A stretch of 64,000 nt of DNA from Zhouia amylolytica (GTDB lineage: Bacteria > Bacteroidota > Bacteroidia > Flavobacteriales > Flavobacteriaceae): the NCBI RefSeq assembly GCF_900116365.1, contig NZ_FPAG01000006.1:1-64000 (forward strand), given 5' to 3'. A model generated the notes under the pieces. That model was not told where the DNA came from. It ran no database searches and saw only the letters and a program-made list of their open reading frames with translations. Shown one piece after another: positions 1 through 23,282 of the stretch. The position numbers were made by a program, and so were the translations under genes. The number at the start of each line of letters is the position of its first letter. Position 1 is the stretch's first letter.

Positions 1-190
1 GAGAATGGAACTGACTTAAGATATATTCAGTTGCTATTAGAGCATAACAGCACCAAAACTACAGAAATTTACACTCCTATAGCCAGAAATAGTTTTATTA
101 AAATATAAAATCTGTTAGATTTGTAGGTGAACATATTAAATATAAATGCCATATGGGGTTTATGTAATTTTTGTAGGTAATTTAAGAAAT
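1..190 (+). repeat. Long direct repeat, copy 1, ending in block A
   Basis: The first roughly 140 bases are nearly identical to 5833-5972. The 3' part (about 110-190) is a diverged copy of block A, a module recurring at 2990, 5940, 9200, 12117 and 13842. Block A holds TAGATTTGTAGG followed by a palindrome whose best form is AAACACCATATGGTGTTT. It ends with TTGTAGG just before the next gene, so it looks like the 3' end of an attC-like spacer cut by the window edge. Confidence 0.75.
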
Positions 191-193
191 GAT

Positions 194-1039
194 ATGAATA
201 AATATTCTCCTTATTGGATTTTAAATCCTCTAAAAAATGACATAGACATTAAAAATCATGGAAATTGGAATTTTTATACATCTAAAGAAGTCATTGATGG
301 CATATCTCCAGTAAAAGACTTAGGAGCTAAGTTTTATCAAATGTCACATCATCATGTAAGCCTTTATGACCACTGTTTATGGATATTTAATAATTCAGAA
401 TTTGATAGTGAAAATAGAAATAAGCTTGCAAGGATTTTAAAATCTGTTGCAGAATCATTTTGTAATTCTCTACTCTCTCAAACGGGAATTATTGTAACAC
501 TTGAAAATGGGGATATAATTAAACAACCTGCAACTCCTATACATTACGAATCAATTGGTGGAGAGAATTTAACAAACAATAAACTTATAACAATCATAAA
601 CATTACTGAAAGTATTTACCGAAAAAACCTAATTGAATATTTAGCTATTTTCGAATATTTAAGAGAAATTAAAAAATCAAGTACTTTTATAAGCGAATTA
701 GCTTTATGGTCTTTCATTGAACAACATTGGATTGAAAACATTAATAGTAAAAATAGATTAGCCGAAAGTTTAAAAAAACTTAGCACAAAAGTATATGATA
801 GAAAAGAACCTGTTTATGTCTTGTTTAAAGACAACCTAAAAAAGCTTATAGAAAGTACAGGAGGAAAAAAGAGTAATTTATCAGATTTAAGGAATCTTTT
901 AGCACATGGGATATTTTACAAACAAAAAGACTCTTGGGATGACAACCAATGGAACCAATACTTTGAGGTTCATGAATTTCTGAATGAGATGGTTCTTTTG
1001 GGACTTGAAAAAGAAATAATTGAATTAAAAAACAAATAA
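194..1039 (+). CDS. HEPN-like domain protein of unknown function
   Basis: Hypothetical protein of 281 aa. The frame is open from an ATG at 146, but those first 16 codons lie in the upstream repeat, so ATG 194 (MNKYSPYW) is preferred. No signal peptide or membrane segment is seen. The C-terminal third is helical and carries RNLLAH at about residues 233-238, which fits the R-x4-6-H signature of HEPN RNases, preceded by an SDL helix as is common in that fold. HEPN proteins are often toxins or defence RNases; that role is inference here. No antitoxin partner is adjacent, because the next gene is a secreted hydrolase in its own unit. Confidence 0.6.
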   Translation: MNKYSPYWILNPLKNDIDIKNHGNWNFYTSKEVIDGISPVKDLGAKFYQMSHHHVSLYDHCLWIFNNSEFDSENRNKLARILKSVAESFCNSLLSQTGIIVTLENGDIIKQPATPIHYESIGGENLTNNKLITIINITESIYRKNLIEYLAIFEYLREIKKSSTFISELALWSFIEQHWIENINSKNRLAESLKKLSTKVYDRKEPVYVLFKDNLKKLIESTGGKKSNLSDLRNLLAHGIFYKQKDSWDDNQWNQYFEVHEFLNEMVLLGLEKEIIELKNK

Positions 1040-1045
1040 CAAAAC

Positions 1046-1185
1046 GCACTACAACACCTTATAAAAATAATGCTTAAGTTTAATCCTAAATCAAAAGGTT
1101 AGTGTGTATTTGGACACTTTTATTTTCCTATGGAAATTCTCGGACATACAACCCGCAATTTACCATACACAAAATCGTTGTAAGC
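1046..1185 (+). repeat. attC-like spacer 1
   Basis: It starts with GCACTACAAC seven bases after the preceding stop and ends with CGTTGTAAGC. The end cores are mutually complementary (CTACAAC with GTTGTAAG) but the inner arms match only loosely. A start codon follows 29 bases later. Confidence 0.45.
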
Positions 1186-1214
1186 TATACGACCAAAACT
1201 TTGAAGCGAACTAT

Positions 1215-2129
1215 ATGATAAAATTAACAAGCCGACTTTTATTACTCACCCTATTTGTAACAACAATTGGTTGCAATAAATCAGTTGAACAAAAAAAGGC
1301 GATACCTCCTCAAGATAAATCTGACTTGAATGTTTCTATAAAAACAGAAAATGTAACTTTCGAGAGTGAGGGAGTTAAATTGGCAGGTACAATTTATAGT
1401 CCTAATCATCCGCATTCAGCGGTTGTCATTGTTCACGGCTCTGACCAAGTACCTCGAATGACCAAATTCGCTGAATTGTTGGCTGAAAATGATATTTTGG
1501 TATTGACCTATGATAAACGCGGAGTTGGAGAATCTGGTGGAGTTTATGCTGGGCCTGAAGTAGGAACGAATAACATCAGTGTTGAAAATCTGAATCTATT
1601 GGCAAAAGATGCAAGTTCTGCTGTTAACTTAATACATAAAAAAGGAGGAAATTTACCTACTGGACTAATTGGGGCGAGTCAAGCCGGTTGGATAATTCCA
1701 ATTGTTGCAAGTGAAAATTCATTGGTCGATTTTATGGTGTTATTAAGTAGCCCAACAATAACTACTCTTGAACAATTAAGGTTTCAGTTTTATACAAACG
1801 GGAGAACAGATTTTTGGGATAATCATACCGAAAAAGACGCTCGCGAACATATCAAAAACGACCCCGACAAATATCAATTTGAAGCTACTGACCCAAAAGA
1901 GGTTTTGAAAACTCTTTCAATTCCTGGTCTTTGGGTTTTTGGAGAAAAAGATATTCAAATTCCTGTGAAAATGTGTATCGAGCATCTTAACAATTTGAAA
2001 TTAGAGAACAAACCATTTGAGTATGTTTTGTTTCCATCACTAGGTCATAATACCAATAAGAGCGAACCGATAAGCATTTCAGTTAATTGGATAAAACAAA
2101 AATCGTTGAATATTAAGAATAATAAATAG
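1215..2129 (+). CDS. Alpha/beta hydrolase lipoprotein
   Basis: Protein of 304 aa from ATG 1215. The frame is open upstream to 1104, but that part falls in the spacer, while ATG 1215 gives a clean lipoprotein signal peptide (basic start, hydrophobic run, lipobox TIGC with Cys20). The alpha/beta hydrolase fold is supported by VHGS (oxyanion region, about 73-76), the nucleophile elbow GASQAG with Ser155, the acid in FGEKD (about Asp246) and the base in LGHNT (about His278). It resembles dienelactone-hydrolase or acyl-peptidase-like esterases. The substrate cannot be told. It probably acts in the periplasm, anchored by its lipid. It is a single-gene unit in the array. Confidence 0.85.
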   Translation: MIKLTSRLLLLTLFVTTIGCNKSVEQKKAIPPQDKSDLNVSIKTENVTFESEGVKLAGTIYSPNHPHSAVVIVHGSDQVPRMTKFAELLAENDILVLTYDKRGVGESGGVYAGPEVGTNNISVENLNLLAKDASSAVNLIHKKGGNLPTGLIGASQAGWIIPIVASENSLVDFMVLLSSPTITTLEQLRFQFYTNGRTDFWDNHTEKDAREHIKNDPDKYQFEATDPKEVLKTLSIPGLWVFGEKDIQIPVKMCIEHLNNLKLENKPFEYVLFPSLGHNTNKSEPISISVNWIKQKSLNIKNNK

Positions 2130-2141
2130 AAATAAATCACT

Positions 2142-2276
2142 GCCTACCACACGGTGTATAAGTACTATCGGTTTAAGTGATAAAATAAAGTGTAAACATA
2201 AAACAACGGTCAGTGTTAATCTGAAAAGTTAGTGAATAGAAAGCCACGACTAATCATACACAGAACCGTTAGCACC
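2142..2276 (+). repeat. attC-like spacer 2
   Basis: It begins GCCTACCACACGGTGTATAA and ends CATACACAGAACCGTTAGCACC. The reverse complement of the end lines up with the beginning over about 25 bases (CTACCACACGGTGTATAA against CTAACGGTTCTGTGTATG), giving a long imperfect hairpin of about 135 bp. The next gene's ATG follows ten bases later in the context AATTTGAGAATG. Confidence 0.6.
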
Positions 2277-2285
2277 AATTTGAGA

Positions 2286-2732
2286 ATGACAAGAAATTAT
2301 TCAGCAGATAATGAGTTAAGGGAATTGGATAATTACTATCCCAAGTCTGACTTGAACCACGTTTATCAAAAGAACAGAGACCAAATAATTAATCTGCTAA
2401 ATACCATTGAAGCCGTCTGGAACACAAGTGAGTTGGATAATGAAAAATTTGAGATTCTATATGAAGGACTTCAAAATTCTTGGACTGCAATTTTTTACGA
2501 TATTATTGGAAAGGAAATTAACTTGATGACCGGAAAAATCAATGGAGTTGAAAAACTAATCTATAATGGTATTAAGGACAGTAAATGGCGAACAAGATTT
2601 AATACTGTCGTGATAATGAAAGGGTTCGAACAGAAGAAAATTAAGAATGAAATAATTGACTTAGGTTTAAGTGATAAAAGCAAAAAAGTAAGAGAAATGG
2701 CTTTAGATGTACAAAATCATTGGACTGATTGA
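2286..2732 (+). CDS. Hypothetical protein with HEAT-like C-terminus
   Basis: Protein of 148 aa. The frame is open from 2232, but ATG 2286 sits right after the GTTAGCACC core, as for other units of the array, and is preferred. It is soluble, charged and has no signal peptide. The C-terminal half (WRTRFNTVVIMKGF ... LGLSDKSKKVREMALD) looks like one or two HEAT repeats. Small HEAT-type proteins in such arrays are sometimes immunity or adaptor proteins, but nothing here shows that. Function unknown. Confidence 0.65.
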   Translation: MTRNYSADNELRELDNYYPKSDLNHVYQKNRDQIINLLNTIEAVWNTSELDNEKFEILYEGLQNSWTAIFYDIIGKEINLMTGKINGVEKLIYNGIKDSKWRTRFNTVVIMKGFEQKKIKNEIIDLGLSDKSKKVREMALDVQNHWTD

Positions 2733-2741
2733 AAAACTGAT

Positions 2742-3071
2742 CCCAACATTGTAAAACGCAATTTGATTACGCGCAGTTGGCTGTGCTCGTGTTGGCGGAT
2801 TCGACTACTATTCGATTGTGATCGGGATAAACCAAGCGGGTGGTGTATACGGCGGTTCAAAAAGAATATTAACCATTGCAGTACAATAGCATACTAAGAT
2901 ACCCTCTTTTCTGGAGCCTGGATTGCGTTATCATAGTTTGTAGCAGAGGACTATAAGCTACCGCCTATACTCCCATGTAGCAAGAAACAGTTTTGTTGAA
3001 AAAATCTGTTAGATTTGTAGTAAACATATTGAAAATAAACACTATATGGTGTTTGTGCATTTGTTGTAGGC
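2742..3071 (+). repeat. attC-like spacer 3 (blocks B and A)
   Basis: This 375-base gap between genes (2733-3107) contains no convincing gene. It starts with CCCAACATTG, continues through block B (GCTCGTG, GGATTCGACT, AAGCGGGTGGTG, TCTTTTCTGGAGCCTGG) and block A (CTGTTAGATTTGTAG, AAACACTATATGGTGTTT), and ends GTTGTAGGCAAG. The same composite recurs at 8957, 11876 and 13561. Confidence 0.6.
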
Positions 3072-3107
3072 AAGTGATTAACAAAATAATTTAGAAAAAA
3101 TAAAGAG

Positions 3108-4649
3108 ATGAAAACAAACATTAAATTATTTGTGCTGGCACTTATGTTTGTTATTCTGGGTATATCCTGCCAGAATCAATCAAAACAAGAGTATGACTTG
3201 GTAATCCTTAATGGCCGTGTTATGGACCCGGAAACCAATTTCGATGCTGTTCGTAATGTGGGTATCGAGGATGGAAAAATCGCCGTCATTACAGAAAAGG
3301 AAATTAAAGGGAAAGAATCCATTGATGCCACAGGTTTAGTTGTCGCTCCGGGATTTATAGAACCACACGCCCACGGGCAGGACTTTTTCGCCTTTAAACT
3401 TTACTTGCGCGATGGTATCACCACGGCGTTGGAACTGGAGCTTGGTGCCTTCCCTGTAGAGGATTTTTATCAATATTTTGAAGGCAGGGCTCAACTCAAT
3501 TATGGTGCAACTGTTGGTCATGGTTTTGCCCGCATGGCTGTGCTGGATAAGGTTAATCCCAAGGGTAGGGCCATGTATACAGGAGCGCTGGAGGAAACCA
3601 TGAAGGATGGTTCACACTGGCAGACCAAGACCTACGATCCGGCAGATCTGCCCGCCCTAGAAGAGGCGATCGAGAATGGATTGAAACAGGGAGGTCTGGG
3701 AATTGGGTTCGCGGTAGGTTATTACAGTTCAGCGGGCGGGCCGGAAATCATGGCTCTCGCCAAATTGGCAAAAAAATATAACGCTTTCATTACGACGCAC
3801 GTTCGCTTTCTCTCACAGTTACCTCCCAGTGGATATCTAGGAATTGAAGAAATGTTAACAGCTGCAAAGATGAACGACGTTCCGCTGTTAGTGCACCATG
3901 TACCGAGTAACTGCCTCGGTTTAACACCGTTATGTCTGGATGTAATCGACGAGGCTCGGAGACAAGGAATGAATGTGGTTGCTGAATTTTACCCCTATAC
4001 TTTTGCCAATTCTTACGCCGGTGCCGATTACCTTGCACCTGGCTACGAGCAGCGGATCGGAATGGACCCCTCCGATATTGTCGTCACCGAGACAGGTCAA
4101 CGTCAAACGGCTGAATCGTTTGCCAAGCTTCGCAAGGAAGCACCCTCAACGGGTGTTCTCATTTACACACAAAAAGATAAAGATATGATGGAGGCACTAA
4201 AGCGCCCCGGTGTTTTTTTGGGAAACGATGCCATTCCTTTCATCATGCCTGATGGTAAAGAACCAACCTGGAATACACCATATGGAGTTGGTAAGGGTCA
4301 CCCTCGTGGTGCGGGTGCACACGCAAAGCTGTTGCGAATAGTACGTGAAGAAAATCCTATCTCTTTGATGGAAGCTATTGCCAAGATGTCGTACCTGCAA
4401 GCCAAGTGGTTGGAATCTACGGTACCTCAATTCAAAACCCGTGGACGAGTTCAAGAAGAAGCAACAGCGGATATCACCATCTTCGATCCAAAAACGGTAC
4501 AAGACAATGCCACTGCGGAAGAGGGCAAGAACACGCTGCCATCTACAGGCATTCCCTATGTCATCGTTAATGGTAATATTGTGGTCAAGGACTCCAAAGT
4601 TCTCAAAGACGTTTATCCCGGGCAGGCCATTCGTAATCCGGTGAGGTAA
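3108..4649 (+). CDS. D-aminoacylase-type amidohydrolase lipoprotein
   Basis: Protein of 513 aa. It has a lipoprotein signal peptide (LGISC, Cys21), then a composite-domain amidohydrolase: small beta domain (DLVILNGRVMDPETNFDAV), the metal-binding PGFIEPHAHG with His87 and His89, and later LLVHHVPSN and FLGNDAIPF segments expected to supply further metal ligands. It ends with the beta-sandwich strand (ADITIFDP). This matches the N-acyl-D-amino-acid deacylase / D-glutamate deacylase group of metal-dependent hydrolases; exact substrate unknown. The gene is visibly richer in G+C than its neighbours, suggesting a separate origin. It is the sole gene between two spacers. Confidence 0.85.
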   Translation: MKTNIKLFVLALMFVILGISCQNQSKQEYDLVILNGRVMDPETNFDAVRNVGIEDGKIAVITEKEIKGKESIDATGLVVAPGFIEPHAHGQDFFAFKLYLRDGITTALELELGAFPVEDFYQYFEGRAQLNYGATVGHGFARMAVLDKVNPKGRAMYTGALEETMKDGSHWQTKTYDPADLPALEEAIENGLKQGGLGIGFAVGYYSSAGGPEIMALAKLAKKYNAFITTHVRFLSQLPPSGYLGIEEMLTAAKMNDVPLLVHHVPSNCLGLTPLCLDVIDEARRQGMNVVAEFYPYTFANSYAGADYLAPGYEQRIGMDPSDIVVTETGQRQTAESFAKLRKEAPSTGVLIYTQKDKDMMEALKRPGVFLGNDAIPFIMPDGKEPTWNTPYGVGKGHPRGAGAHAKLLRIVREENPISLMEAIAKMSYLQAKWLESTVPQFKTRGRVQEEATADITIFDPKTVQDNATAEEGKNTLPSTGIPYVIVNGNIVVKDSKVLKDVYPGQAIRNPVR

Positions 4650-4796
4650 AGGGAAGATAAGATAAGAGACTGTTGATGTAGAAGGTTGGGTCAAGACTTT
4701 TGCCATTTCTGTAGTTGAATAAGATGTAGGCCATGCAGCAGACTGGGTAAAAGATAATTATTGAATTGTTAACAGATGAAATACAAGCAAACACCT
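4650..4796. other. Non-coding stretch before spacer 4
   Basis: About 150 bases after the amidohydrolase stop. A minus-strand reading frame runs through it but overlaps the amidohydrolase C-terminus and shows no family motif I trust. I see no clear function. Confidence 0.4.
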
Positions 4797-4932
4797 GCAT
4801 ACCACATACGGTATATTTCAGGCGGTAGGGATGTGCAACTTGAAAGGTTTGCAATACCTATTAAGGTTCGTAACGGTAGAAAGGTAAGTAGTTTCTAATA
4901 CCGCCCGCAATATACCGTCACCGTTGTAGCAC
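4797..4932 (+). repeat. attC-like spacer 4
   Basis: It begins GCATACCACATACGGTATA and ends AATATACCGTCACCGTTGTAGCAC. The arms ACGGTATATTTCAGGCGGTA and TACCGCCCGCAATATACCGT are inverted repeats of about 20 bases with few mismatches. This is one of the clearest hairpin pairs in the array. The ATG of the next gene is seven bases downstream. Confidence 0.65.
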
Positions 4933-4938
4933 ATTAAA

Positions 4939-5559
4939 ATGAACCGAAATATGAAAATATCGACAGGACTAATTTCATTGGGACTTTTAGCGACTTTGAT
5001 TTACAAGTTGACAGAAGTTCCGGGCGGAATGATTTTATCAGGACTATTTCTTGGTGGAATGTTAATCGCCTTGATTTTGGTTGGCGGATTTATCTTGAGT
5101 TGGCTGACAAAATTGATTTTAAAGCAACTTCCGTTTTGGACCGTTTATTTCACAATTACAACGATAGCATTTGCCGTTTTCCATTACCAACTCTATTCCC
5201 CGACTTTGAAAATTGTCGTACCTGAGAATTATACGGGACAAGTCAGTCTCATAAAATCGAATGTGACCGAAAACATTTTGACCTTAGATTCAAATGGAAT
5301 CGGATACTTGAACGAATGGACATTCAAACACACTTATTCAAAACCAATCGTGGTAGACGTGAATGGTAAGAATTTGGAAGAGCAATTGGTAGGGTTCAAT
5401 AATTCGTCATTTTTCGGATTAGGAAGTTCTACAACCTCAGAAAATCAAATTGAAATTAAATCAAAGTCATTCGAAATAGTCCCTGAAGACAAGACCAACG
5501 AAAAACAGTATTACCGCACGAATCTTTCAGAACTCGTGGACAAAGAAAAAATAAAATAA
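4939..5559 (+). CDS. Hypothetical membrane protein
   Basis: Protein of 206 aa that I do not recognise. Three hydrophobic segments occupy roughly residues 7-26, 31-60 and 65-86 (the last holding FWTVYFTITTIAFAVFHY), followed by a soluble domain of about 115 residues rich in beta-type sequence (LKIVVPENYTGQVSLI). The soluble part ends in a charged tail (LVDKEKIK). The topology suggests an inner-membrane anchor with an exported or cytoplasmic domain. No paired gene is present and function is unknown. Confidence 0.7.
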   Translation: MNRNMKISTGLISLGLLATLIYKLTEVPGGMILSGLFLGGMLIALILVGGFILSWLTKLILKQLPFWTVYFTITTIAFAVFHYQLYSPTLKIVVPENYTGQVSLIKSNVTENILTLDSNGIGYLNEWTFKHTYSKPIVVDVNGKNLEEQLVGFNNSSFFGLGSSTTSENQIEIKSKSFEIVPEDKTNEKQYYRTNLSELVDKEKIK

Positions 5560-5669
5560 AAACGTGCTACAACAAATGTAGTCGTTGCACAAATGATTAA
5601 TTGCATAAATACAATATCTAAACAAGCTCTTAAAAGGGCTTTTATTTTACGCTTTAGTTTCGTTGCAAA

Positions 5670-5831
5670 CTAAAATAAAGGCTTATAAAGAAGTGAAATA
5701 TATCGTAGGAGTACTTTTAGCACAAAACAGACGCCTTGCATACTTGCTGCTCCACTTTTTGTATGTTTTTCTATAAATTTCAGGTACTTCTTCAAATTGT
5801 AGGCAATGGCCGAGAGCTGTATATATTTACT
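5670..5831 (-). pseudogene. C-terminal relic of an IS1182-type transposase
   Basis: The minus strand reads 53 codons to a TAG at 5670-5672, including IQLSAIAYNLKKYLKF, the well-known conserved C-terminal stretch of IS1182-family (DDE) transposases. Reading further upstream meets a stop within about 10 codons, and no catalytic DDE region is present. It is a dead fragment. It shows that insertion sequences have visited the array. Confidence 0.75.
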
Positions 5832-5832
5832 G

Positions 5833-5972
5833 GAGAATGGAACTGACTTAAGATATATTCAGTTGCTATTAGAGCATAACAGCACCAAAACTACAGAAAT
5901 TTACACTCCTATAGCCAGAAATAGTTTAATTAAAATAAAAAATCTGTTAGATTTGTAGGTGAACATATTAAA
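5833..5972 (+). repeat. Long direct repeat, copy 2
   Basis: Nearly identical to 1-140, with only a few differences near the AT-rich 3' end. Here it directly abuts the transposase relic, so the sequence just outside the window may hold a second relic. Confidence 0.85.
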
Positions 5973-6019
5973 AATGAACACCATATGGTGTTTATACAAT
6001 TGTTAGCTAACATTTGAAA

Positions 6020-6757
6020 ATGAACAAACTGACCACAATTTTACTTCTTATTTTGATACTGGTTAGTTGTCAAAAAAACATTGAACGGATTGACACTGCA
6101 AATGAATTACGAGGAAATACATTCAATATGTCTTCAATTGGAGAAAAGGACACGATTACTATTGAATTCAAAGACTCTACATTTACTGTTTTTGAGTATG
6201 ATGATAGAAGTTTACCTTGGCGAATTGCATCTTTTGAGAATAACAATATATTAGTTTTTGACAGTCGAGTAATTGCAATTGAGCAAATTGATAAGAACAC
6301 TCTAAAAGGACTTTTAATATCCGAAAAGGACTATGAAATCATTCTTGAGAAAAGACAACTTCAATGGAATAAAGAGTTGCTAAATGGAATTTGGATTGAG
6401 GAAAAAAATTATGATTTGTTCTTTAATGACAGTATAGTAAAGCCACCATTACCACCTGCACCACCAGGAATAACCGAAAGTGATTTTCAATACCCACCTT
6501 TTTATGAAATTAAAGGCGATACTATTTCTGCATCATATTTTTATCAAGTTTCCAAATCTGGAATTGACATCAGTAATACAACAGAATTCTTAACCCTGGA
6601 ATTACAAAGTGATTTGGATAAGGTTGAGAAACTATGGAAAATAAAAAAGCTGACCGACAGCATAATGATTATCGACAGAACTATAGAAAAAGAAAATAAA
6701 AAGTTTAGTATCTTAACGACAACTGAAGAAAATATAAAACTGATTAAAAAACGTTAG
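6020..6757 (+). CDS. Hypothetical lipoprotein
   Basis: Protein of 245 aa from ATG 6020, which sits in the context ATTTGAAAATG right after GTTAGCTAAC. The start is a lipoprotein signal peptide (MNKLTTILLLILILVSCQ, Cys16-17). The rest alternates beta-type and charged segments with a proline cluster (PPLPPAPPG) in the middle. This pattern is seen in many secreted Bacteroidota proteins with lipocalin-like or beta-sandwich folds. I recognise no family. The stop codon TAG overlaps the first base of the next spacer core (GCTAACACC). Confidence 0.7.
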   Translation: MNKLTTILLLILILVSCQKNIERIDTANELRGNTFNMSSIGEKDTITIEFKDSTFTVFEYDDRSLPWRIASFENNNILVFDSRVIAIEQIDKNTLKGLLISEKDYEIILEKRQLQWNKELLNGIWIEEKNYDLFFNDSIVKPPLPPAPPGITESDFQYPPFYEIKGDTISASYFYQVSKSGIDISNTTEFLTLELQSDLDKVEKLWKIKKLTDSIMIIDRTIEKENKKFSILTTTEENIKLIKKR

Positions 6758-6940
6758 CTAACACCGGCTATAGTTCATTGCTTCTGACCTTCCTCTCGGA
6801 AAGTCCTCGCAAATTTGCTATCTTCGATTTACGGCGGAAAATCCTCGCGGATTTTATTCATGATATATTGATTGTTTAATTAGGTATTCATTAATCCTTT
6901 GGATTTCACGTACCGAAACCATAGCCAAACCGTTGTGTGT
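6757..6940 (+). repeat. attC-like spacer 6 (block C)
   Basis: It starts GCTAACACCGGCTATAG, overlapping the previous stop codon, and ends CATAGCCAAACCGTTGTGTG. The ends are complementary (AACACCGGCTATAG with CATAGCCAAACCGTT). The interior carries block C: GGCGGAAAATCCTCGCGG, TTTATTCATGAT, TTAATTAGGTATTC. Close relatives are at 15376 and 19515. Confidence 0.6.
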
Positions 6941-6994
6941 CATACCCGAAGAACGTAAATTGAATTTAAAACGGACAAAAAAACTGAAAAACAA

Positions 6995-7282
6995 ATGTTT
7001 ATTATAAATCTGACTTATAAAACGGAACTTGAAAAAATTGACCAATTTCTGATTGAACATATTGAATTTCTAAATGAACAATATGAATTAGGACATTTTC
7101 TCGCCTCAGGACGAAAAATTCCAAGAACAGGAGGAATAATTCTGTCTAATGTTAAATTACAATCAGAATTGGAAAAAATTATTGAAAAAGACCCTTTCAA
7201 GAAAAATGAATTAGCGAATTACGAGTTGACTGAATTCGTGCCGACTAAAACTTGTGAAGAACTGAATTTCTTGATGAAATAA
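6995..7282 (+). CDS. YciI-like protein
   Basis: Protein of 95 aa. The segments LIEHIEFLNEQYELGHFLASG and PRTGGIIL, together with the size and the ferredoxin-like alternation, fit the YCII-related (YciI) family, whose members are small dimeric alpha+beta proteins often linked to degradation enzymes. The conserved His of that family may correspond to His17. Biochemical role is not known. It is a single-gene unit 55 bases after the preceding core, a longer leader than for most units. Confidence 0.75.
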   Translation: MFIINLTYKTELEKIDQFLIEHIEFLNEQYELGHFLASGRKIPRTGGIILSNVKLQSELEKIIEKDPFKKNELANYELTEFVPTKTCEELNFLMK

Positions 7283-7288
7283 AAAAGT

Positions 7289-7423
7289 ACGAACACAATA
7301 ATGGCTATAAGAAATTGCTTGTTCTCGCCTACTTCTGAAAATCTTCCGGGATTTTCAGCTTGGTGTGTACTTGTAAAGTTAAGTGCTAAACCACGCAACG
7401 CCTCTTATACAAACACGTTACCT
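7289..7423 (+). repeat. attC-like spacer 7
   Basis: It begins ACGAACACAATAATGGCTATAAG and ends GCCTCTTATACAAACACGTTACC. ATAAGAAATTGC near the start is complementary to GCAACGCCTCTTAT near the end. The start codon of the next gene follows 16 bases later. Confidence 0.5.
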
Positions 7424-7438
7424 TTCATAACCATAACC

Positions 7439-8338
7439 ATGAAATATATTATTCTAGTATTAACATTTATAACTTCATTAACTTCAATTGCTCAACCAAC
7501 CATAAGCTTCACTTTCGATGACGGCAGCATGTCGAAACGTGCTGGCTATGAGTTTGAAGAATGGAATAATATGATTTTGAGTGCTTTGGAGGATGCTGAA
7601 ATCCAAGCGGTATTTTTTGTCAAAACCGAAGGAAAGTCTAATGCTCAGGGAAGGCATCTTTTAGAAACATGGAACAACAAAGGGCATTTTATTGCTAACC
7701 ACACTCACTCGCATCCGAATTTTAATAGAGAAGAAATCAATGCAGAAGATTTTCGAATAGAACTTTTAAGGGCTGACTCCTTGATTAATTCCTTGAGTAA
7801 CTACACCAAACTATTCAGATTCCCATATTTAAAGGAAGGAAACACAACAACTGAAGTAGATAGTATTCGGCAAATCATGAAATACTATGGGTATAAAAAT
7901 GGTCATGTTACAATTGATGGGTCGGACTGGTATATTGACAGTCGATTAAGAAAGAGACTTAATCAAAACCCAAAGGCCCATATTGAAGATTTCAAGGATT
8001 TCTATCTGGAACACCTATTTGAACGTGCTAACTACTATGAAAACTTGTCGCTAAAGCTTACAGGTCGACATATCAACCATACGCTACTTCTTCATCACAA
8101 CCTTGCAGCCGCACTTTTCTTAGATGATCTTATCGCAATGTTTAAATCAAAAGGTTGGAATGTGATTTCAGCCGATGAGGCTTTTAAAGATTCTATTTAT
8201 GAACAAACTCCTAACCATGCAGGAGAAAGCTTAATTTGGGCTTTGGCTAAAGACTCTGGAAAATACGAAGATGAACTTAGATATCCGGCAGAAGACAGCA
8301 GGTATGAAAAGAAACGAATGGATGAGCTTGGACTTTAA
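7439..8338 (+). CDS. Polysaccharide deacetylase family protein (secreted)
   Basis: Protein of 299 aa from ATG 7439; the open frame upstream to 7301 lies in the spacer. It has a signal peptide ending near TSIAQP. NodB-homology motifs are present: TFDDG (residues 25-29, metal ligand and base Asp pair), HTHSH (88-92, zinc-binding H-x3-H) and RFPY for motif 3. These predict a metal-dependent deacetylase acting on N- or O-acetylated glycans outside the cytoplasm. The C-terminal third is charged and not recognised. Substrate is open. Confidence 0.85.
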   Translation: MKYIILVLTFITSLTSIAQPTISFTFDDGSMSKRAGYEFEEWNNMILSALEDAEIQAVFFVKTEGKSNAQGRHLLETWNNKGHFIANHTHSHPNFNREEINAEDFRIELLRADSLINSLSNYTKLFRFPYLKEGNTTTEVDSIRQIMKYYGYKNGHVTIDGSDWYIDSRLRKRLNQNPKAHIEDFKDFYLEHLFERANYYENLSLKLTGRHINHTLLLHHNLAAALFLDDLIAMFKSKGWNVISADEAFKDSIYEQTPNHAGESLIWALAKDSGKYEDELRYPAEDSRYEKKRMDELGL

Positions 8339-8346
8339 TAACGAAA

Positions 8347-8462
8347 GGTAACAGACACTAAAATGAAGATGCAAACCAAGCCATTTGATATGATATTACA
8401 AACCAGAAACTCCCGTGATTTTAGCAAGGGCAGCAGACTCATTTTAGTTAAGCGTTGGCACC
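8347..8462 (+). repeat. attC-like spacer 8
   Basis: It starts GGTAACAGACACTAAAATGA and ends CTCATTTTAGTTAAGCGTTGGCACC. CACTAAAATGA and TCATTTTAGTT are inverted. The next ATG follows in the context AATTTGAAAAATG. Confidence 0.6.
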
Positions 8463-8472
8463 AATTTGAAAA

Positions 8473-8961
8473 ATGAGCATCTTAGAAAATAAAAAGCATT
8501 TCCTTCACAAACATCTTACTTTTCTTGAATCATATGGAAAGGAAGGAAAAAATGGTGGATTTGAGAATTTATTAAAACAGCTTGGAATTAAAGTTGGCGG
8601 AAAAAGTTGGGACGATGACCACTCAACAATTGATTGGAATTTAACGAATAATCATTTTCAATTCTTCTTCGATTATGAGAATAATGAGACGGAAATTAAA
8701 AATTGGCTAAAAAAAAGTCCAATATCCAGATATGAGACACTTTTGACTTGGCTATCTTGGGAAGACCCAATTATTCGAGTTAAATCAACTGATTTTATTG
8801 AAAATTGGGAGGAATTTATTATCGCCGGAGGTTGGGATGGACTTATTTTGACCACAGAGGACGGAAAATATTATTTAGAATTTACCGACACTTGGAAATT
8901 TCATTTGAACAGTAATTTTGAAATAAAACCTGGCACGAAAAAAATAAAAGCTAGTAGGTAA
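8473..8961 (+). CDS. Hypothetical protein
   Basis: Protein of 162 aa, soluble, no signal peptide, unusually rich in Trp and acidic residues (SWDDDHSTIDWN, LTWLSWEDPIIR, WEEFIIAGGWDGLIL). The C-terminal half reads as beta strands (GKYYLEFTDTWKFHLN). Size and composition recall immunity-type proteins, but I cannot place it in a family. The TAA stop lies inside the next spacer core GGTAACACC. Confidence 0.6.
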   Translation: MSILENKKHFLHKHLTFLESYGKEGKNGGFENLLKQLGIKVGGKSWDDDHSTIDWNLTNNHFQFFFDYENNETEIKNWLKKSPISRYETLLTWLSWEDPIIRVKSTDFIENWEEFIIAGGWDGLILTTEDGKYYLEFTDTWKFHLNSNFEIKPGTKKIKASR

Positions 8962-9286
8962 CACCGCATATTATTTTTTAGGAGTTCATCAGTCGTTGCG
9001 CTCGTGTCTGTGGATTCGACTCCCGTTCGATTGTGCTCAGGATAAACGAAGCGGGTGGTGGAAACGGCGGTTCAAAAGAATATTAACCTTTTCCGTACAA
9101 TAGCATACTAAGATACCTTCTTTTCTGGAGCCTGGATTGTATTATCATAGTTTGTAGCATAGGACTTTAAGCTACTAACTATCCTCCCATGTAGCAAGAA
9201 ACAGTTTTATTGAAAAAATCTGTTAGATTTGTAGGTAAACATATTAAAAATAAACACCATATGGTGTTTATGGAATTGTTGTGGCC
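8957..9286 (+). repeat. attC-like spacer 9 (blocks B and A)
   Basis: It starts GGTAACACCGCATATTA, overlapping the previous stop codon, and ends GAATTGTTGTGGCC. Block B (GGATTCGACTCCCGTTCGAT, GCGGGTGGTGGAAACGGCGG) and block A with the perfect palindrome AAACACCATATGGTGTTT (9252-9269) fill the interior. It lies in a 369-base gap without any gene. Confidence 0.65.
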
Positions 9287-9330
9287 AATTTGAAATAAAC
9301 ACCCGATTAATAATGAAATCGGGCGAAAAT

Positions 9331-9966
9331 TTAAATTTTAGCTAATGCTATTTTTATTCCCATAACTATAAAAATCAAACCACTTAATTTATTTAACCAA
9401 CGTCCTGATTTAGGAATACTTCTTAACTTTTGACTGAAAACACTTGCGAATAATGTCAATATCAAAAACCATACAATCCCGATTAAGGCATAAGTTATGC
9501 CCAATAATAGGAACGGAATAGGATTATCCATTTGATTTACATTAATAAATTGAGGAAAAAAAGCTAGAAAGAATAATGCAACTTTCGGATTTAAAGCATT
9601 AGTTAAAAATCCAGTCCAAAAATCATTTTTTGAATTTTTGTTTAACTTATTTTTATCAGTTGGAATAAATTCCTCTTTGTTCTTCAACTTTAAAAATCCC
9701 AAATAAATCAGATATCCTGCACCAAGAAATTTGATTAAAGTCAATGCGAAAGTAGATTTTCCAATAAGCACCGACAAACCTAATGCAGCAAAAAATGTAT
9801 GAACCAAAACACCTGCATTTACTCCAAAAGAAGCGTAAACACCTGACTTTTTTCCTTGACCAATTGACTTATTTAAAACAAAAACCGTGTCAATTCCAGG
9901 TGTCATAATAAATAACAAAGCCGTTACTATAAATGTCATTAAATTTTCAATTCCCATTGTGTTCAA
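9331..9966 (-). CDS. LysE/RhtB-family exporter
   Basis: Protein of 211 aa with about six hydrophobic segments. The N-terminal FIMTPGIDTVFVLNKSIGQG matches the LysE/RhtB signature (TPGP-type motif, here TPGID), and the central FLGAGYLIYLGF is typical. Members export amino acids or related metabolites. It is the only intact gene of the array on the minus strand, and it is divergent from the LysR gene 99 bases away, a classical regulator-exporter pair. A second ATG three codons in is possible. Confidence 0.88.
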   Translation of the reverse strand: MNTMGIENLMTFIVTALLFIMTPGIDTVFVLNKSIGQGKKSGVYASFGVNAGVLVHTFFAALGLSVLIGKSTFALTLIKFLGAGYLIYLGFLKLKNKEEFIPTDKNKLNKNSKNDFWTGFLTNALNPKVALFFLAFFPQFINVNQMDNPIPFLLLGITYALIGIVWFLILTLFASVFSQKLRSIPKSGRWLNKLSGLIFIVMGIKIALAKI

Positions 9967-10065
9967 TCTTTTAGAATTAATAAAATATTATCAACAAAGA
10001 AACAGTTTTGATATACTTAAAAAAATACATATTATTGATCATCTAATGCAAAAACAGCATTATTA

Positions 10066-10926
10066 ATGACGATTCAACAAATAAAATATTTTTTAGCACT
10101 TGCCAAAGAGCTTCATTTCTGGAATACGGCAGAGAAAGTTTTTATATCACAGTCTTCATTAAGCAGACAAATCCAAGCTTTGGAAGATGAATTACAAATA
10201 CAACTTTTTGAACGGGACAAAAGAAATGTCAAGCTTACAAATGCGGGTAAATTTCTTCAAGAACATTGGACAGAGAAAATCAACGAGTTTGACCAAATTA
10301 TAAGGCATGCAAAAAAAATTGACGAAGGAAAAGCGGGAACTATCTCTATATCGTATCCGGGTTCTATAGCTTATAAGTTTTTACCAATTTTTTTGGAGGT
10401 TTTAAGCAACAATCTACCCGATTTAAAAATAGAATTAACGGAACCGACAGACGAAAATCACGAAAAGCTTTTATTAAACTTTCAAACCGACATAGCATTT
10501 AGTAGAGACAAAATCAAAAATGCAAATATCGACTCTCAAAAACTTTATTCTGAACCAATATGTTTGGTTGTTCCTAAAAACCATAGGTTAAACAAAAAAG
10601 ACAAAGCTGGATTAGAGAACGAAAAGTTCATTATTTCTGGTTTACACCAAACCACTTTTTTTGCTTCGTTATTAAGGTCGTGGTTTTCAAAAAATGAAAT
10701 CGAACCCGAAATCATAATTGAATCGGACTTTGGAGGTATGATAATAAACCTCGTTTCTAAAGGGCTTGGAATCTCAATTTTACCTTTGTCATTTAAATCG
10801 GCACAAGTAGAAAATGTTGAGTTTATAGAATTAGAGGAAAAAATAGATTTATACATAAACTGGCGAAAAAAGGAACTGAACAACACGATTAAAAAAGTAA
10901 TTGAACTTGCTAAAAATGTTGCATAA
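10066..10926 (+). CDS. LysR-family transcriptional regulator
   Basis: Protein of 286 aa. The winged helix-turn-helix is at residues 1-60 (MTIQQIKYFLALAKELHFWN, then ISQSSLSRQIQALEDEL and LFERDKRNVKLT). A type-2 periplasmic-binding-like effector domain follows from about 90. The divergent arrangement with the LysE-type exporter implies that it controls that gene from the 99-bp intergenic region, which contains AT-rich dyads such as ATATTATTGATCATCTAAT. Its ligand is unknown, probably the exported metabolite. Confidence 0.9.
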   Translation: MTIQQIKYFLALAKELHFWNTAEKVFISQSSLSRQIQALEDELQIQLFERDKRNVKLTNAGKFLQEHWTEKINEFDQIIRHAKKIDEGKAGTISISYPGSIAYKFLPIFLEVLSNNLPDLKIELTEPTDENHEKLLLNFQTDIAFSRDKIKNANIDSQKLYSEPICLVVPKNHRLNKKDKAGLENEKFIISGLHQTTFFASLLRSWFSKNEIEPEIIIESDFGGMIINLVSKGLGISILPLSFKSAQVENVEFIELEEKIDLYINWRKKELNNTIKKVIELAKNVA

Positions 10927-10940
10927 AAATAAAAACTGGT

Positions 10941-11071
10941 GCTTACAACATATATAAAAAATAGCGGTTTAATCGCTTAATCAAACAAAATGAATAAATT
11001 AAAGGTCAGTAACTATCCGAAAAGTTCGTGTGTAAAATCCGCTACTTTTCATATACAAGACCGTTGGCAGT
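10941..11071 (+). repeat. attC-like spacer 10
   Basis: It starts GCTTACAACATATATAAAA and ends TTTTCATATACAAGACCGTTGGCAGT. AATAGCGG near the start pairs with CCGCTACTT near the end, and the outer cores pair as well, giving a hairpin of about 130 bp. The ATG of the next gene is 14 bases away. Confidence 0.6.
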
Positions 11072-11084
11072 AATTCTAAAATTC

Positions 11085-11870
11085 ATGAAAAAATACCTAC
11101 TTCGAACAATCATGGTGCTTATCGGATTCAATTGTTCCGCTCAAAGTATAGCGACCGCCTTAAGTCATGATCGTAAACCAGATATTAGAGAAAAACCCCA
11201 TATTATCGAAATAACTACCACGACAACGTATTACAGAAAAAATGTAATGGAAACTTTAAAAACAGTTTCGACTTATAATATTCAAAATATGTTGGTATCT
11301 GAAATAAAATATGATAATGAAGAAAATATCAAGGCAAGATTAAACTTCATTTATGACTCAACAAATGCTAAAAGTATTACCAGAAAATTTGAAACCTGGA
11401 ATAGAGTAATTGGCCATTCGGTAGAAATTACAGAGTACGTTTATGACGAAAAAGGTTATTTAATTGAGACAATTGATAAAAATGTCAATAACCAACCGTT
11501 TAGGATTAGTTCTTTAAAGAATAATGACCAAGGATATCCTATACAATTAGTATTAAAGGAATTAAATTCAAATTTTAATGGAGTCGAATTTGCTTCCTAT
11601 GATTTTGACAAAAATTTAGTTAAAATATCTGTTCTCGATGAAAACGGAAAGACACTTTCTACAAATGAAATGAGAATTAATTTTGAAGAAAGGAAATTTA
11701 ATGATCTTGTCTATAATGATTTTGGAGATTTAATAAAGTCCAATGGAAAGGAATATGAATATAAGTATGACAAATTCAACAATTGGATAAAAAAAACTTG
11801 GTATAAATATCTTGATGGTAAAAAAAGAAAGTATCAAGTTTCTACCAGAAAAATAAAATATAAAAAATAA
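11085..11870 (+). CDS. Secreted protein with YD/RHS-like repeats
   Basis: Protein of 261 aa from ATG 11085. A signal peptide ends near FNCSAQS. The body contains degenerate YD-type motifs (VYDEKGYLIETI, YDFDKNLVKISVLDENGKTL, YEYKYDKFNNWIKKTWY) like those of wall-associated or RHS-type beta-strand repeats. Such secreted Bacteroidota proteins are common, but no function is assigned. No toxin C-terminus is present, so this is not a polymorphic toxin as it stands. Confidence 0.7.
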   Translation: MKKYLLRTIMVLIGFNCSAQSIATALSHDRKPDIREKPHIIEITTTTTYYRKNVMETLKTVSTYNIQNMLVSEIKYDNEENIKARLNFIYDSTNAKSITRKFETWNRVIGHSVEITEYVYDEKGYLIETIDKNVNNQPFRISSLKNNDQGYPIQLVLKELNSNFNGVEFASYDFDKNLVKISVLDENGKTLSTNEMRINFEERKFNDLVYNDFGDLIKSNGKEYEYKYDKFNNWIKKTWYKYLDGKKRKYQVSTRKIKYKK

Positions 11871-11875
11871 CTACA

Positions 11876-12203
11876 GCCAACAACATATAACCGCAATTTG
11901 CTTACGCCATTACGCAGCGCTCGTGCCTGTGGATTCGACTCCCGTTCGATTGTGCTCAGGATAAACCAAGCGGGTGGTGGAAACGGCGGTTCAAAAATGA
12001 TATTAACCTTTGCAGTACAATACGATACTAAGATAGTCTCTTTTCTGGAGCCTGACTTGCGTTATCATAGTTTGTATTATAGGACTTTGAGCTACTGCTT
12101 ATCCTCCATGTAGCAAGAAACAGATTTGTCAAATAAATCTATTAGATTTGTAGGTAAACATATTAAAAATAAACACCATATGGTGTTTATGTAATTGCAT
12201 GTA
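11876..12203 (+). repeat. attC-like spacer 11 (blocks B and A)
   Basis: It starts GCCAACAACATATAACCGC and runs through block B (GGATTCGACTCCCGTTCGAT) and block A, with AAACACCATATGGTGTTT at 12171-12188. The 3' core is degenerate (TAATTGCATGTAA instead of a GTT core). The gap of 344 bases between genes holds no convincing gene. Confidence 0.55.
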
Positions 12204-12214
12204 AATAAAAAATC

Positions 12215-13561
12215 ATGAGGGAGTTCATCATCATTGCAATCTTTTTAACAAGCCTGAATATTGGGTTTTGTCAGGATACAAGTATGAATGAGAAGCTAAA
12301 TTTGACCATAGAAGCTTACGAAAAAGTATTTGGTTTTTCAGGTACAGTTAAAGTTATAACAGACAATAATAACACCTTTGAGAAAAGTTACGGGCTCGCT
12401 AACAGAAGCTTTAAAATCAAGAATACACCTAATACAAGATTCTCCATAAATTCAATCTCAAAAACATTTACGGCTACGGCAATTTTGATTTTAATCGAGG
12501 ATGGTAGGATCGACATTGAAGCACCTGTTGCAAGATATTTACCTAATTTAGAAACCAATTGGGCGGATAACATAACCGTGCATCATTTGCTTACGCATAC
12601 TTCAGGTCTTTCGAGAGAATCTGGTGTTCAACCACATGATGAATTGACTTTCCAAGAACAAGTCGAACTTGTCGAAAAACAAACCCTTCTTTTTACCCCT
12701 GGAGAGCGATATGAATACTCTAACGCTGGCATCATTTTATTGGGTGCTATTATCGAAAACGTTAGTGGCATGTCTTACCAAGCATTTATTAACGAAAACA
12801 TCATTCAACCCTTGAACTTGAATAATACAGGTTATTATAGAGGAAGGAATGTTGTTTCAAACCTTGCGGTACCATACCGAATTTCTTCGAATGGATTAGA
12901 GTTTGCTCAAAGAAGTAAGCATTATGGAGATAATGCGGGAGGTGGCCTTTACTCAAATCCTTCGGATCTTTTTAAGTTCGTACAGGGTTTGGAGGACTAT
13001 AGAATTCTTAGTAAAAAATATGTTGACATGATGTTCAAGGCTCATGTACAAAGTGGTGAAAATGATTTTGAAGGTTATACCTGGAGCATTAAATATTTCG
13101 GCGATAAAAAGATATATTTTGCAGCCGGTAGCGGTTATGGCTCCAAAAGTGTAATTATTAGAATGGCAGAATCCGGAGGCTTTATAGGAATAACGTCAAA
13201 CTGGGGAAATACGCCTATACTTCAGCTATTACGTGATTTATATCTTGCTATCACAAATAAAGATGTAGTATTACCTTCTGAAAACAAATTAGCTAACCCC
13301 AATTCTTATAAAAGGCAAATTGGAACTTATATTTTCGACAAAAAAGAACTCACTAAGCACTTGGGAATTAAACGGGCTAAAATTGTTTTACATGAAGTTG
13401 ATGGTCGTTTATTCTTAGACGATGAGTTATTAGCCGAAGAGGCTAACCTTTTGATGCTAACCTATACCAATGAATTGAAAATCAAGTTTAATGGTGATAA
13501 AATGATTATAAATATGAATGACAATACCATCGAAGGGGTTAAAAGGCATCGAATCAACTAG
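12215..13561 (+). CDS. Serine hydrolase, class C beta-lactamase-like
   Basis: Protein of 448 aa with a signal peptide (cleavage near GFCQDT). Catalytic motifs of the beta-lactamase / penicillin-binding superfamily are present: S-x-x-K at Ser80-Lys83 (SISK), Y-x-N at Tyr168-Asn170 (YSN), and a third segment AAGSGYGS in place of the usual HxG. LLTHTSGL is also typical of the family. Members include D-aminopeptidases, esterases and beta-lactamases; the substrate is open. The C-terminal 100 residues form a small extra beta domain. Confidence 0.85.
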   Translation: MREFIIIAIFLTSLNIGFCQDTSMNEKLNLTIEAYEKVFGFSGTVKVITDNNNTFEKSYGLANRSFKIKNTPNTRFSINSISKTFTATAILILIEDGRIDIEAPVARYLPNLETNWADNITVHHLLTHTSGLSRESGVQPHDELTFQEQVELVEKQTLLFTPGERYEYSNAGIILLGAIIENVSGMSYQAFINENIIQPLNLNNTGYYRGRNVVSNLAVPYRISSNGLEFAQRSKHYGDNAGGGLYSNPSDLFKFVQGLEDYRILSKKYVDMMFKAHVQSGENDFEGYTWSIKYFGDKKIYFAAGSGYGSKSVIIRMAESGGFIGITSNWGNTPILQLLRDLYLAITNKDVVLPSENKLANPNSYKRQIGTYIFDKKELTKHLGIKRAKIVLHEVDGRLFLDDELLAEEANLLMLTYTNELKIKFNGDKMIINMNDNTIEGVKRHRIN

Positions 13562-13931
13562 TTAACCTGCCTTTCGGAGAGAAATGAAGTGAGCTTCTCA
13601 AATATTTATATTCATAAAGTCCTTATTAAAAAAAGAAACAAAACCCTGAGGCCACCAGCGTACTCTTCGGCTGTCGCTCAGGATAAACCAAGCGGGTCGC
13701 ATAAAAGGCAGTTCAAAAAGAATATTAACCTTTGCAGTACAATACGATACTAAGATACCCTCTTTTCTGGAGTCTGGCTTGCGTTATCATAGTTTGTAGC
13801 ATAGGACTTTGAGCTACTGCCTATCCTCCCATATAGCAAGAAACAGATTTGTCAAATAAATCTATTAGATTTGTAGGTGAACATATATAAAATAAACACC
13901 CTATGGTGTTTATACAATTGCTATATGCAAG
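13561..13931 (+). repeat. Spacer 12 (partial block B plus block A)
   Basis: This 373-base gap starts with GTTAACCTGCC at the preceding stop. A partial block B (CTCAGGATAAACCAAGCGGG, TCTTTTCTGGAGTCTGG) and block A (AAACACCCTATGGTGTTT, 13894-13911) follow. The 3' end is TTGCTATATGCAAG, so the GTT core is missing. No gene is seen. Confidence 0.5.
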
Positions 13932-13934
13932 CCT

Positions 13935-15383: not shown

Positions 15384-15562
15384 CTCCGTGTATAACTTAT
15401 TGTGGCTGAAATTCCTAATTGGAATGCATTGCAATTTGCTATCTTGCGGTCACGGTAGAAAATCCTAGCGGATTTTATTCATGATTTATTGATTGTTTAA
15501 TTAGGTATTCTTGAATTCTTGGGATTTGGGTAACGGAATCATAGCCAAACCGTTGGGCAGCA
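15376..15562 (+). repeat. attC-like spacer 13 (block C)
   Basis: It starts GCATATAACTCCGTGTATAA, with the preceding TAA stop inside the core, and ends GAATCATAGCCAAACCGTTGGGCAGC. GTGGCTGAAATTCC pairs with GGAATCATAGCCA. The interior shares block C (AAAATCCTAGCGGATTTTAT, TTAATTAGGTATTC). Confidence 0.6.
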
Positions 15563-15563
15563 T

Positions 15564-16466: not shown

Positions 16467-16474
16467 AATACCTT

Positions 16475-16660
16475 GCCCAAAGATGTGTAATGCAATTTAT
16501 TTACGGCATATTATTTTATACGTCTTCATCAGTCGCTGCGGTGGTGTCGGCGGGGTTGTCAGAATCCACACAAAACTGCTAACGCAAGTCCTAAAGCGAA
16601 AAATATTAACTTTAATCCCAACTAACCATTATACCGGACTTTTACGCGTGTTACTGACCG
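16475..16660 (+). repeat. Spacer 14, diverged
   Basis: It begins GCCCAAAGATGTGTAATGCAA and includes remnants of block B (CATCAGTCGCTGCGGTGGTG). It ends GTGTTACTGACC just before the GNAT gene. It shares its first part with the spacer at 17125 (GATGTGTAAxTGCAATTTATT). End pairing is weak. The 69-codon reading frame over it is composed of repeat sequence. Confidence 0.4.
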
Positions 16661-16668
16661 AACATTAA

Positions 16669-17139: not shown

Positions 17140-17328
17140 GTGCAATTTATTCAAGACATATTCTTTTTAGGAGTACATCAGTTGCTGGGCTCGTGTCGGC
17201 GGATTCGACTCTCCTTTGGCTGAGCTCAGGGGCAGGCTGGAGTCCACCTGGAATTGCGAGTGTCGGTGCTTAAGCGAAAAATAATTAATTTTAAAACCTT
17301 AACTGACGGATATACGATTCGTTACAAG
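17125..17328 (+). repeat. attC-like spacer 15, diverged
   Basis: It starts GGTAACGATGTGTAAGTGC inside the GNAT gene and ends GATTCGTTACAAG. Block B fragments (GCTCGTGTCGGCGGATTCGA) are inside. Terminal complementarity is weaker than in the other sites. Confidence 0.45.
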
Positions 17329-17349
17329 AAAACCTAATAAAATCGGGAT

Positions 17350-19107: not shown

Positions 19108-19128
19108 TGCCTATGTGTGTAATTTGAG

Positions 19129-19512: not shown

Positions 19513-19514
19513 AG

Positions 19515-19704: not shown

Positions 19705-19728
19705 ATATTTGAAAATGAAATCAAAAAT

Positions 19729-20373: not shown

Positions 20374-20381
20374 TAATAGTT

Positions 20382-20452: not shown

Positions 20453-20470
20453 ACTATAAAATGAACTAAT

Positions 20471-21523: not shown

Positions 21524-21567
21524 CAATGGTCTGACTTTAAATCGAACTCTTTTTTTTATGAAAAAGC

Positions 21568-23280: not shown

Positions 23281-23282
23281 AA

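Follow-up and report, generated by a model that had tools for sequence, protein, structure and literature searches.

The R boxes of integron cassette sites follow the consensus GTTRRRY / RYYYAAC, and Xer recombinases act at a single dif site. At canonical attC sites the integron integrase uses the bottom strand, which is chosen by extrahelical bases, as described in PMC2727003, and the account given in PMC9668308 treats the additional domain of IntI near patch III as a defining characteristic. For the Bacteroidetes, very few integrons are reported in the survey of PMC9024848, and the taxon-specific site models presented in PMC8352920 do not include this group. Our search of the open-access literature, with preprints and most subscription papers outside its scope, returned no description of a system such as the one reported here, which may be described elsewhere.

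Here we analysed a stretch of 64,000 nucleotides (the window) from Zhouia amylolytica, whose intergenic spacers had attracted attention in an initial annotation by their complementary ends. We conclude that these spacers are very probably attC-like sites of an integron-like cassette system of the Flavobacteriaceae, whose recombination we infer from sequence comparison.

Results

A cassette array divided between two contig ends

The window corresponds to the first 64 kb of contig C13 (NZ_FPAG01000006.1), in a genome of 3.9 Mb assembled into 17 contigs. Open reading frames, repeats at both contig ends and reading of the sequence delimited the left part of a cassette array at the very start of this contig. 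Its second part (locus L027) lies at the opposite contig end, at about C13:327860-343880, in the same orientation. The start of the contig recurs at its end (window 1-74 equals L027 16807-16880), pointing either to an assembly break at a repeat or to a closed circle, and the array of the second part begins inside a truncated epimerase-like gene (L027 ~690-860, judged by eye). Spacers were delimited by hand, giving 31, of which 17 lie in the window and the other 14 in L027. Those of the window are the following, with the array itself in the first line:

1..24165, + strand: cassette array, left part, at the start of contig C13
1046..1185, + strand: W1, attC-like spacer with a weak stem
2140..2275, + strand: W2, first spacer of the initial annotation; L'' 2152-2167 / L' 2248-2263, degenerate stem
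2739..3071, + strand: W3, attC-like left half joined to the recombinase 3' end and an attI-like palindrome
4794..4932, + strand: W4, named in the initial annotation; L'' 4808-4823 / L' 4903-4918
5564..6011, + strand: W5, IS-like remnant, recombinase 3' end, palindrome, GTTAGC
6754..6941, + strand: W6, weak stem
7287..7426, + strand: W7
8344..8462, + strand: W8, named in the initial annotation; L'' 8357-8372 / L' 8433-8448
8953..9286, + strand: W9, attC-like left half and attI-like end
10938..11071, + strand: W10, named in the initial annotation; L'' 10951-10966 / L' 11040-11055, with both A.C positions of the family consensus
11873..12204, + strand: W11, attI-like end, GTT lost
13558..13928, + strand: W12, attI-like end, GTT changed
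15374..15561, + strand: W13, weak stem
16471..16659, + strand: W14, weak stem
17119..17329, + strand: W15, weak stem
19514..19706, + strand: W16, weak stem
20379..20454, + strand: W17, short form of 76 nt

The assignable genes in 1-24165 are on the + strand, with the single clear exception of 9331-9966; a divergent gene pair at 9331-10926, one gene per strand, lies within one cassette, and its second gene encodes a LysR-type regulator. Cassettes of the window encode sizeable enzymes (12215-13561, 21643-23280, 17350-19107, 3108-4649, 1104-2129, 16669-17139 and 19729-20373), comprising two PF00144 proteins (beta-lactamase family), a sulfatase, an amidohydrolase, a serine hydrolase, an acetyltransferase and a NUDIX protein. 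PADLOC matched none of 10 ORFs of the region (E 0.001), and Rfam at gathering scores gave no match within window 1-24165; beyond the array, positions 42770-42896 on the - strand hold a Bacteroidete tryptophan peptide leader RNA (RF01692).

Spacer ends pair with their own partners

The initial annotation had described the ends of several spacers as imperfect inverted repeats able to fold as long hairpins, and had proposed folding energies compared with shuffled sequence, together with covariation across homologous spacers, as checks. The four complementary end pairs that it named are present where it had placed them, in W2, W4, W8 and W10. On energy alone, its claim would have failed. The mean folding z of 24 of the 31 spacers (those of at most 215 nt, DNA parameters) was -0.92 (top strand) and -1.23 (bottom strand), no lower than the intergenic controls (26 segments, -1.13 top and -1.00 bottom); 40 ORF segments gave about -0.4. 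Taken singly, the site placed from 4797 (W4) stood out, with 5 (top) and 1 (bottom) of 100 shuffles as low, and the site from 10941 (W10) did so on the bottom strand only (3/100), while those from 2142 (W2; 65 and 43 of 100) and 8347 (W8; 38 and 29) were unremarkable.

Direct pairing of the ends bore out the accompanying claim that each end pairs with its own partner while the sequence differs between spacers, as did the covariation in the sites of relatives presented below. Own ends scored 25.9, and ends permuted between spacers 19.7 +/- 1.0 (z 6.4, 0 of 20,000 permutations), in 23 of the 31 spacers, the 8 palindrome-ended ones being left out and the terminal 14/12 nt excluded. Removal of the four sites named in advance left a z of 4.9 (again 0 of 20,000). 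The named site at 2142 was weak in this test, ranking 11 of 23, and several sites of the window's own array have weak stems. The wobble bias in this array, 44 to 19 (p 0.002), is weaker than it looks, because the spacers come from a few related families.

The units of the array are cassettes cut at GTT

Two examples illustrate how the two ends of one gene unit are related:

4923..5573, + strand: cassette with start GTTGTAGCAC and end GTGCTACAAC, the reverse complement of the start
7417..8352, + strand: cassette carrying a polysaccharide deacetylase gene, with start GTTACCTTTC and end GAAAGGTAAC

Between integron sites, a cassette would open with R', at the right end of the preceding spacer, and close with R'', at the left end of the following one, and the two would match. 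In a gapped junction test on 32 cassettes of the own array, the start of a cassette matched its own end with a score of 7.78, compared with 4.85 +/- 0.25 when ends were permuted (z 11.6, 0 of 20,000), and the own end was the first-ranked partner for 15 of the 32. These figures include W11 and W12, whose right ends were misplaced inside the palindrome, and E3, whose right end was set by hand at the second GTT behind its attI-like copy. R'' and R' within one spacer were unmatched (4.52, z -1.2, 31 spacers). Since start and end match within cassettes and not within spacers, the cassettes are the units, with the cut at GTT, and every spacer combines parts of two neighbours.

We also counted exact 9-mer pairs, in which GTTN6 is followed by its reverse complement 250-2500 nt further. 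They were not raised in the window array (6 in cassette order, 11 in reverse), so that the case in the own array rests on the gapped junction test; L027 gave 14 and 9, and the 39.8 kb outside the array 9 and 7. The flat count in the own array fits a decayed array.

The recombinase persists as fragments in the window and intact in relatives

The array carries repeated copies of the primary site together with the 3' end of a recombinase gene, often joined to the left halves of cassette sites:

1..123, + strand: recombinase 3' fragment, 90% identity to residues 3-43 of a 43-aa query, with one internal stop
~140-180: degenerate attI-like copy behind this fragment
5827..5955, + strand: second recombinase 3' fragment, 91% identity, inside W5 and behind an apparent IS remnant
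9250..9271, self-match on both strands: attI-like palindrome ATAAACACCATATGGTGTTTAT, then GGAATT and GTT
near 3030, 5980, 12169-12190 and 13890: further palindrome copies
2739-3071, 5564-6011, 8953-9286, 11873-12204, 13558-13928: copies of primary site and recombinase 3' end in the window
L027 ~1000-1090, 2600-2720, 4871-5320, 9117-9313, 12665-13000: such copies in the second part of the array

An intact recombinase gene was not found in the 17 contigs of this genome, which hold 3' fragments only; a profile of the N-terminal domain gave no match there, and nothing scored above the TIGR02249 cut-off. An array in a genome without intact integrase is termed a CALIN, and this is the situation in the 17-contig assembly. 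The window array is probably a stranded, CALIN-like remnant that has lost its recombinase.

Searches with the C-terminal query returned some match in 58 of 60 genomes, many matches being Xer-sized proteins, the best non-fragment matches lying in ORFs of 371-411 aa. In G001, a genome of the same genus, a palindrome and GTT come after the recombinase gene, and the array behind them has spacers of the same types. Scanning public genomes, we confirmed 380 relatives and examined the best 80 loci; these are mostly from Flavobacteriaceae (e.g. Aestuariibaculum, Maribacter, Zobellia, Winogradskyella and Arenibacter), and the intact gene was readable in 68 of them. Viral contigs contained 163 stretches coding for relatives of the core enzyme, with 80 loci kept.

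Behind the intact genes of relatives, the palindrome recurs at the same position and with the same design. The best palindrome beside GTT scored 7.24 on average against 0.59 in shuffled sequence (65 loci, that is, the 68 intact genes minus 3 with less than 60 nt left), and a score of at least 6 was reached in 44 of the 65 loci compared with 1.3% of shuffles; one locus had no palindrome. The element is variable, 54 hairpins differing in sequence, and strand asymmetry was absent from the 44 attI-like hairpins in which wobbles were counted (11 top, 9 bottom). We conclude that the palindrome behind the recombinase gene is the attI counterpart of this system.

Cassette chains follow the intact genes

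In the 25 of the 68 intact-gene loci with at least 5 kb downstream, the sequence behind the recombinase gene held 277 9-mer pairs in cassette order and 118 in reverse, compared with 96 and 68 upstream of the gene in the same loci. The end match was exactly 10 nt long in 175 of 229 cassette pairs, and stopped at the cut point in 194 of 229; the chain search required GTT[AG], and the purine after GTT is thus no result. Over 36 kb of the same-genus genome G001 the pairs were not raised (24 and 22), and the first 9 kb behind its gene gave 6 in cassette order and 2 in reverse when GTT[AG] was required. Four distant members (G007, G024, G026 and G055) also head similar cassette chains; the two that were measured share 38 and 43% identity with the G001 enzyme.

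As a positive control, ten IntI-containing stretches from the same phylum yielded 70 pairs in cassette order and 22 in reverse. Singly, they ranged from 12 vs 1 (L290) and 10 vs 2 (L286) to 4 and 3 (L289) and 2 and 2 (L284). In the stems of these IntI arrays, A.C outnumbered G.T by 27 to 7 (30 stems), and GTTRRRY occurred in 6 of 37 sites; this stem control was read in one orientation from 7 of the ten stretches, and the script did not locate the intI gene in L290. The junction signature therefore marks integron cassettes generally, and the A.C excess is common to both systems.

The fold of the sites is kept while their sequence changes, and better on the bottom strand

Between adjacent cassettes of the relatives, we collected 147 spacers from 33 loci, or 140 once double parses were removed. 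Their length is even, with a median of 136 nt, quartiles of 134 and 139, and a range of 64-211. In the 129 sites of at least 100 nt, the 16-pair inner stem reached a score of 23.8 when own ends were paired and of 10.8 +/- 0.4 when the partner came from another locus, a covariation that we regard as decisive for the proposal of the initial annotation. The Watson-Crick share of this stem was 81% with own and 56% with exchanged ends, and all four Watson-Crick types were present at 14 of the 16 positions (three types at the other two). Strict GTTRRRY was found in 5 of 140 sites and RYYYAAC in 6 of 140, which carries little weight, as the IntI arrays of the phylum reach only 6 of 37; the strict R-box rule thus does not separate the two systems.

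A good stem was present in 133 of the 140 sites. Of their 2128 cells, 1725 are Watson-Crick pairs; read on the top strand, 268 are A.C and 13 are G.T, which leaves 122 others. A.C on the top strand corresponds to G.T on the bottom strand. With exchanged ends, A.C made up 15.2% compared with 12.6% for own ends, and top-strand G.T 5.3% compared with 0.7%. Composition therefore explains part of the A.C count, but not the scarcity of G.T on the top strand.

A consensus was built by RNAalifold from a gapped alignment of 30 diverse sites, taken from 42 chosen among 89 sites of 133-139 nt. It reached -20.5 kcal/mol on the bottom and -12.5 on the top strand, with double changes at 13 of 20 consensus pairs. 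One consensus pair is a bottom-strand G.T in 30 of these 30 chosen sites, and a second one in 22; when the registers were left ungapped, 79 and 64 of 126 stems carried A.C at the two positions. We recognised no fixed unpaired base in the inner stem of the consensus folds; what is invariant is the bottom-strand G.T. Because this pair is G.T on the bottom and A.C on the top, the bottom strand is the one kept foldable. A wobble may be what selects the bottom strand in this system. Taken together, the kept pairing, the cassette-like units cut at GTT and the better-kept pairing of the bottom strand support the suggestion of the initial annotation that structure is recognised as in attC. That the sites work like attC is separate from membership of the IntI family, which fails on the integrase.

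The recombinase lacks the IntI insertion and has its own N-terminal domain

All seven intact relatives that were scanned remained below the TIGR02249 cut-off of 265, with scores of 200-215 bits; the XerD of the genome itself scored less, at 137. For NF040815, an NCBI model named site-specific tyrosine recombinase/integron integrase, 5 of 7 scanned relatives were above the cut-off and two narrowly below. The IntI insertion is absent: of 68 proteins read, 4 lack the motif, and in all of the 64 measured the two motifs lie 64-65 aa apart, compared with 107 aa in 19 of 19 IntI; the alignment to 2a3v likewise has a gap at the insertion. A tree of 40 rows separated the family (22 rows) from IntI (12 rows), each as a clade with support of 100/99; its branches are long, and the tree does not decide on a sister relationship between the two.

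In VIA comparisons, the enzyme without its N-terminal domain matched XerA (5hxy) first, with Z 23.2 but an rmsd of 14.3 over 262, and IntI4 (2a3v) with Z 21.4 and an rmsd of 2.9 over 257. The N-terminal 105 aa gave no Pfam match above the cut-off. A predicted model of this domain (pLDDT 82.5) placed XPB damage-recognition rows among its first eight VIA matches (Z 5.8-6.3, rmsd 1.9-2.3 over 54-57 aa), with the HARP domain of SMARCAL1 (4o66) at Z 4.0; Foldseek returned E values of 0.2-0.6 against XPB and HARP. Since the unrelated aIF1/YciH folds score 5.5-5.8, the domain is perhaps XPB/HARP-like, and we take this likeness of the model as a lead only.

Distribution in the family

The N-terminal-domain profile matched in 112 of 299 genomes of the window's family, which we take to be the Flavobacteriaceae. 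A query made of one own cassette with its site matched in 121 of 199 genomes of the family; among the matches listed, most alignments fall within the right part of the site, with many stopping at query base 804, the final GTT base. IntI was above the cut-off in 105 of 395 genomes of a phylum sample and reached E <= 1e-60 in 107 of the 395, of which 106 belong to other classes and one to the class of the window. None of these 107 is from the family of the window, which contributes at least 24 genomes to the sample.

A cassette homologue in another locus was found for only 7 of 292 candidates. The own cassette at about L027 6006-6592 recurs in Aestuariivivens marinum (85%), with similarity from 1 nt before GTT, and the pair from loci L163 and L203 (82%) is similar from 2 nt before GTT. 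In the pairs L198/L212 and L224/L240, the similarity does not break at GTT.

Discussion

The attC-like reading of the spacers has to be weighed against three others. Plain attC sites of an ordinary IntI integron, whose integrase had been overlooked, would share the cassette logic and the site architecture, and IntI arrays do show the junction signature in most of the ten control stretches as well as the excess of A.C over G.T (27 to 7); the recombinase is also closer to the IntI model, at 200-215 bits, than is the XerD of the same genome at 137. We nevertheless consider this explanation improbable: seven of seven relatives stay below the cut-off of 265, the insertion is missing (64-65 aa in all 64 measured, compared with 107 aa in each of 19 IntI), the family branches as a clade separate from IntI (100/99), and the 107 genomes with IntI at E <= 1e-60 in the 395-genome sample include none from the own family.

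Less likely still are two further explanations. If the hairpins marked mRNA ends or terminated transcription, with immobile gene units, the position of the spacers at gene 3' ends and the terminator-like stem in W5 (AAGCTCTTAAAAGGGCTTTTATTTT) would be accounted for, but the junction test contradicts this idea, which leaves unexplained the matched cassette ends, the GTT cut, the even site length in relatives and the A.C mismatches, which would fall in the RNA; we rate it as very improbable. Just as improbable, in our view, are non-autonomous repeats of the MITE or REP kind inserting between genes. Such repeats would agree with the matches of the own cassette and site in 121 of 199 family genomes, mostly (among the matches listed) in the right part of the site; yet the outer 10 nt of a gene unit match the far end of that unit, not the other end of the repeat, and the arrays begin at the 3' end of the recombinase gene.

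With the spacers read as attC-like sites, we infer the following mechanism. The recombinase would cleave at G^TT once the bottom strand has folded into a hairpin, its N-terminal domain possibly reading the fold of the site. A circular cassette, with matched R'' and R' ends, would enter beside the palindrome, the attI counterpart. After insertion, R'' would meet the R' of the next cassette and the outer stem would be broken, which would make excision less likely. Beyond this, we tentatively entertain the idea, which we hold to be somewhat less than probable, that the Bacteroidia have their own kind of integron. Its recombinase would be XerA-like, lack the IntI insertion and read folded bottom strands through a different, XPB/HARP-like N-terminal domain and the fixed G.T, and its primary site would itself be a hairpin, so that hairpin recombines with hairpin; ends would be matched only in the circle, making insertion a ratchet.

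A major bacterial group may thus have its own, largely overlooked gene-collecting system. If it is active, this large group holds integron-like libraries that IntI-based searches would miss, and the origin of structure-specific recombination becomes testable by comparing two enzymes with different solutions.

Comparison with known systems

The locus shows the features by which integrons are recognised, namely tandem cassettes mostly in one direction, complementary ends joined at GTT, and a fold that is kept over sequence. It is not an IntI integron, because the integrase feature that defines these was looked for and is absent, and we therefore file the system as integron-like. An integron-like subgroup of simple tyrosine recombinases has been described; the part of PMC8138268 that deals with it leaves Bacteroidetes cassette arrays unmentioned. 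In the Treponema integrons, as described in PMC3607928, the integrase is transcribed toward the primary site, in the direction of the cassettes, as it is here, but they have an IntI enzyme and belong to another phylum. With XerA, XerC and XerD (5hxy, 1a0p) the recombinase shares core-binding and catalytic domains, and it differs from them by its many cassette sites and by the N-terminal extension of about 105 aa.

IntI integrons and CALINs resemble the present system most broadly in their tandem cassettes, the GTT joint, the matched cassette ends and structured sites that favour the bottom strand, and IntI integrons also in the primary site beside the recombinase. By contrast, the recombinase described here is without the additional domain of IntI and has an N-terminal domain of its own, a variable palindrome at the 3' end of the gene serves as its primary site, and its cassette sites, mostly 134-139 nt long, carry one G.T wobble that is invariant among the sites compared.
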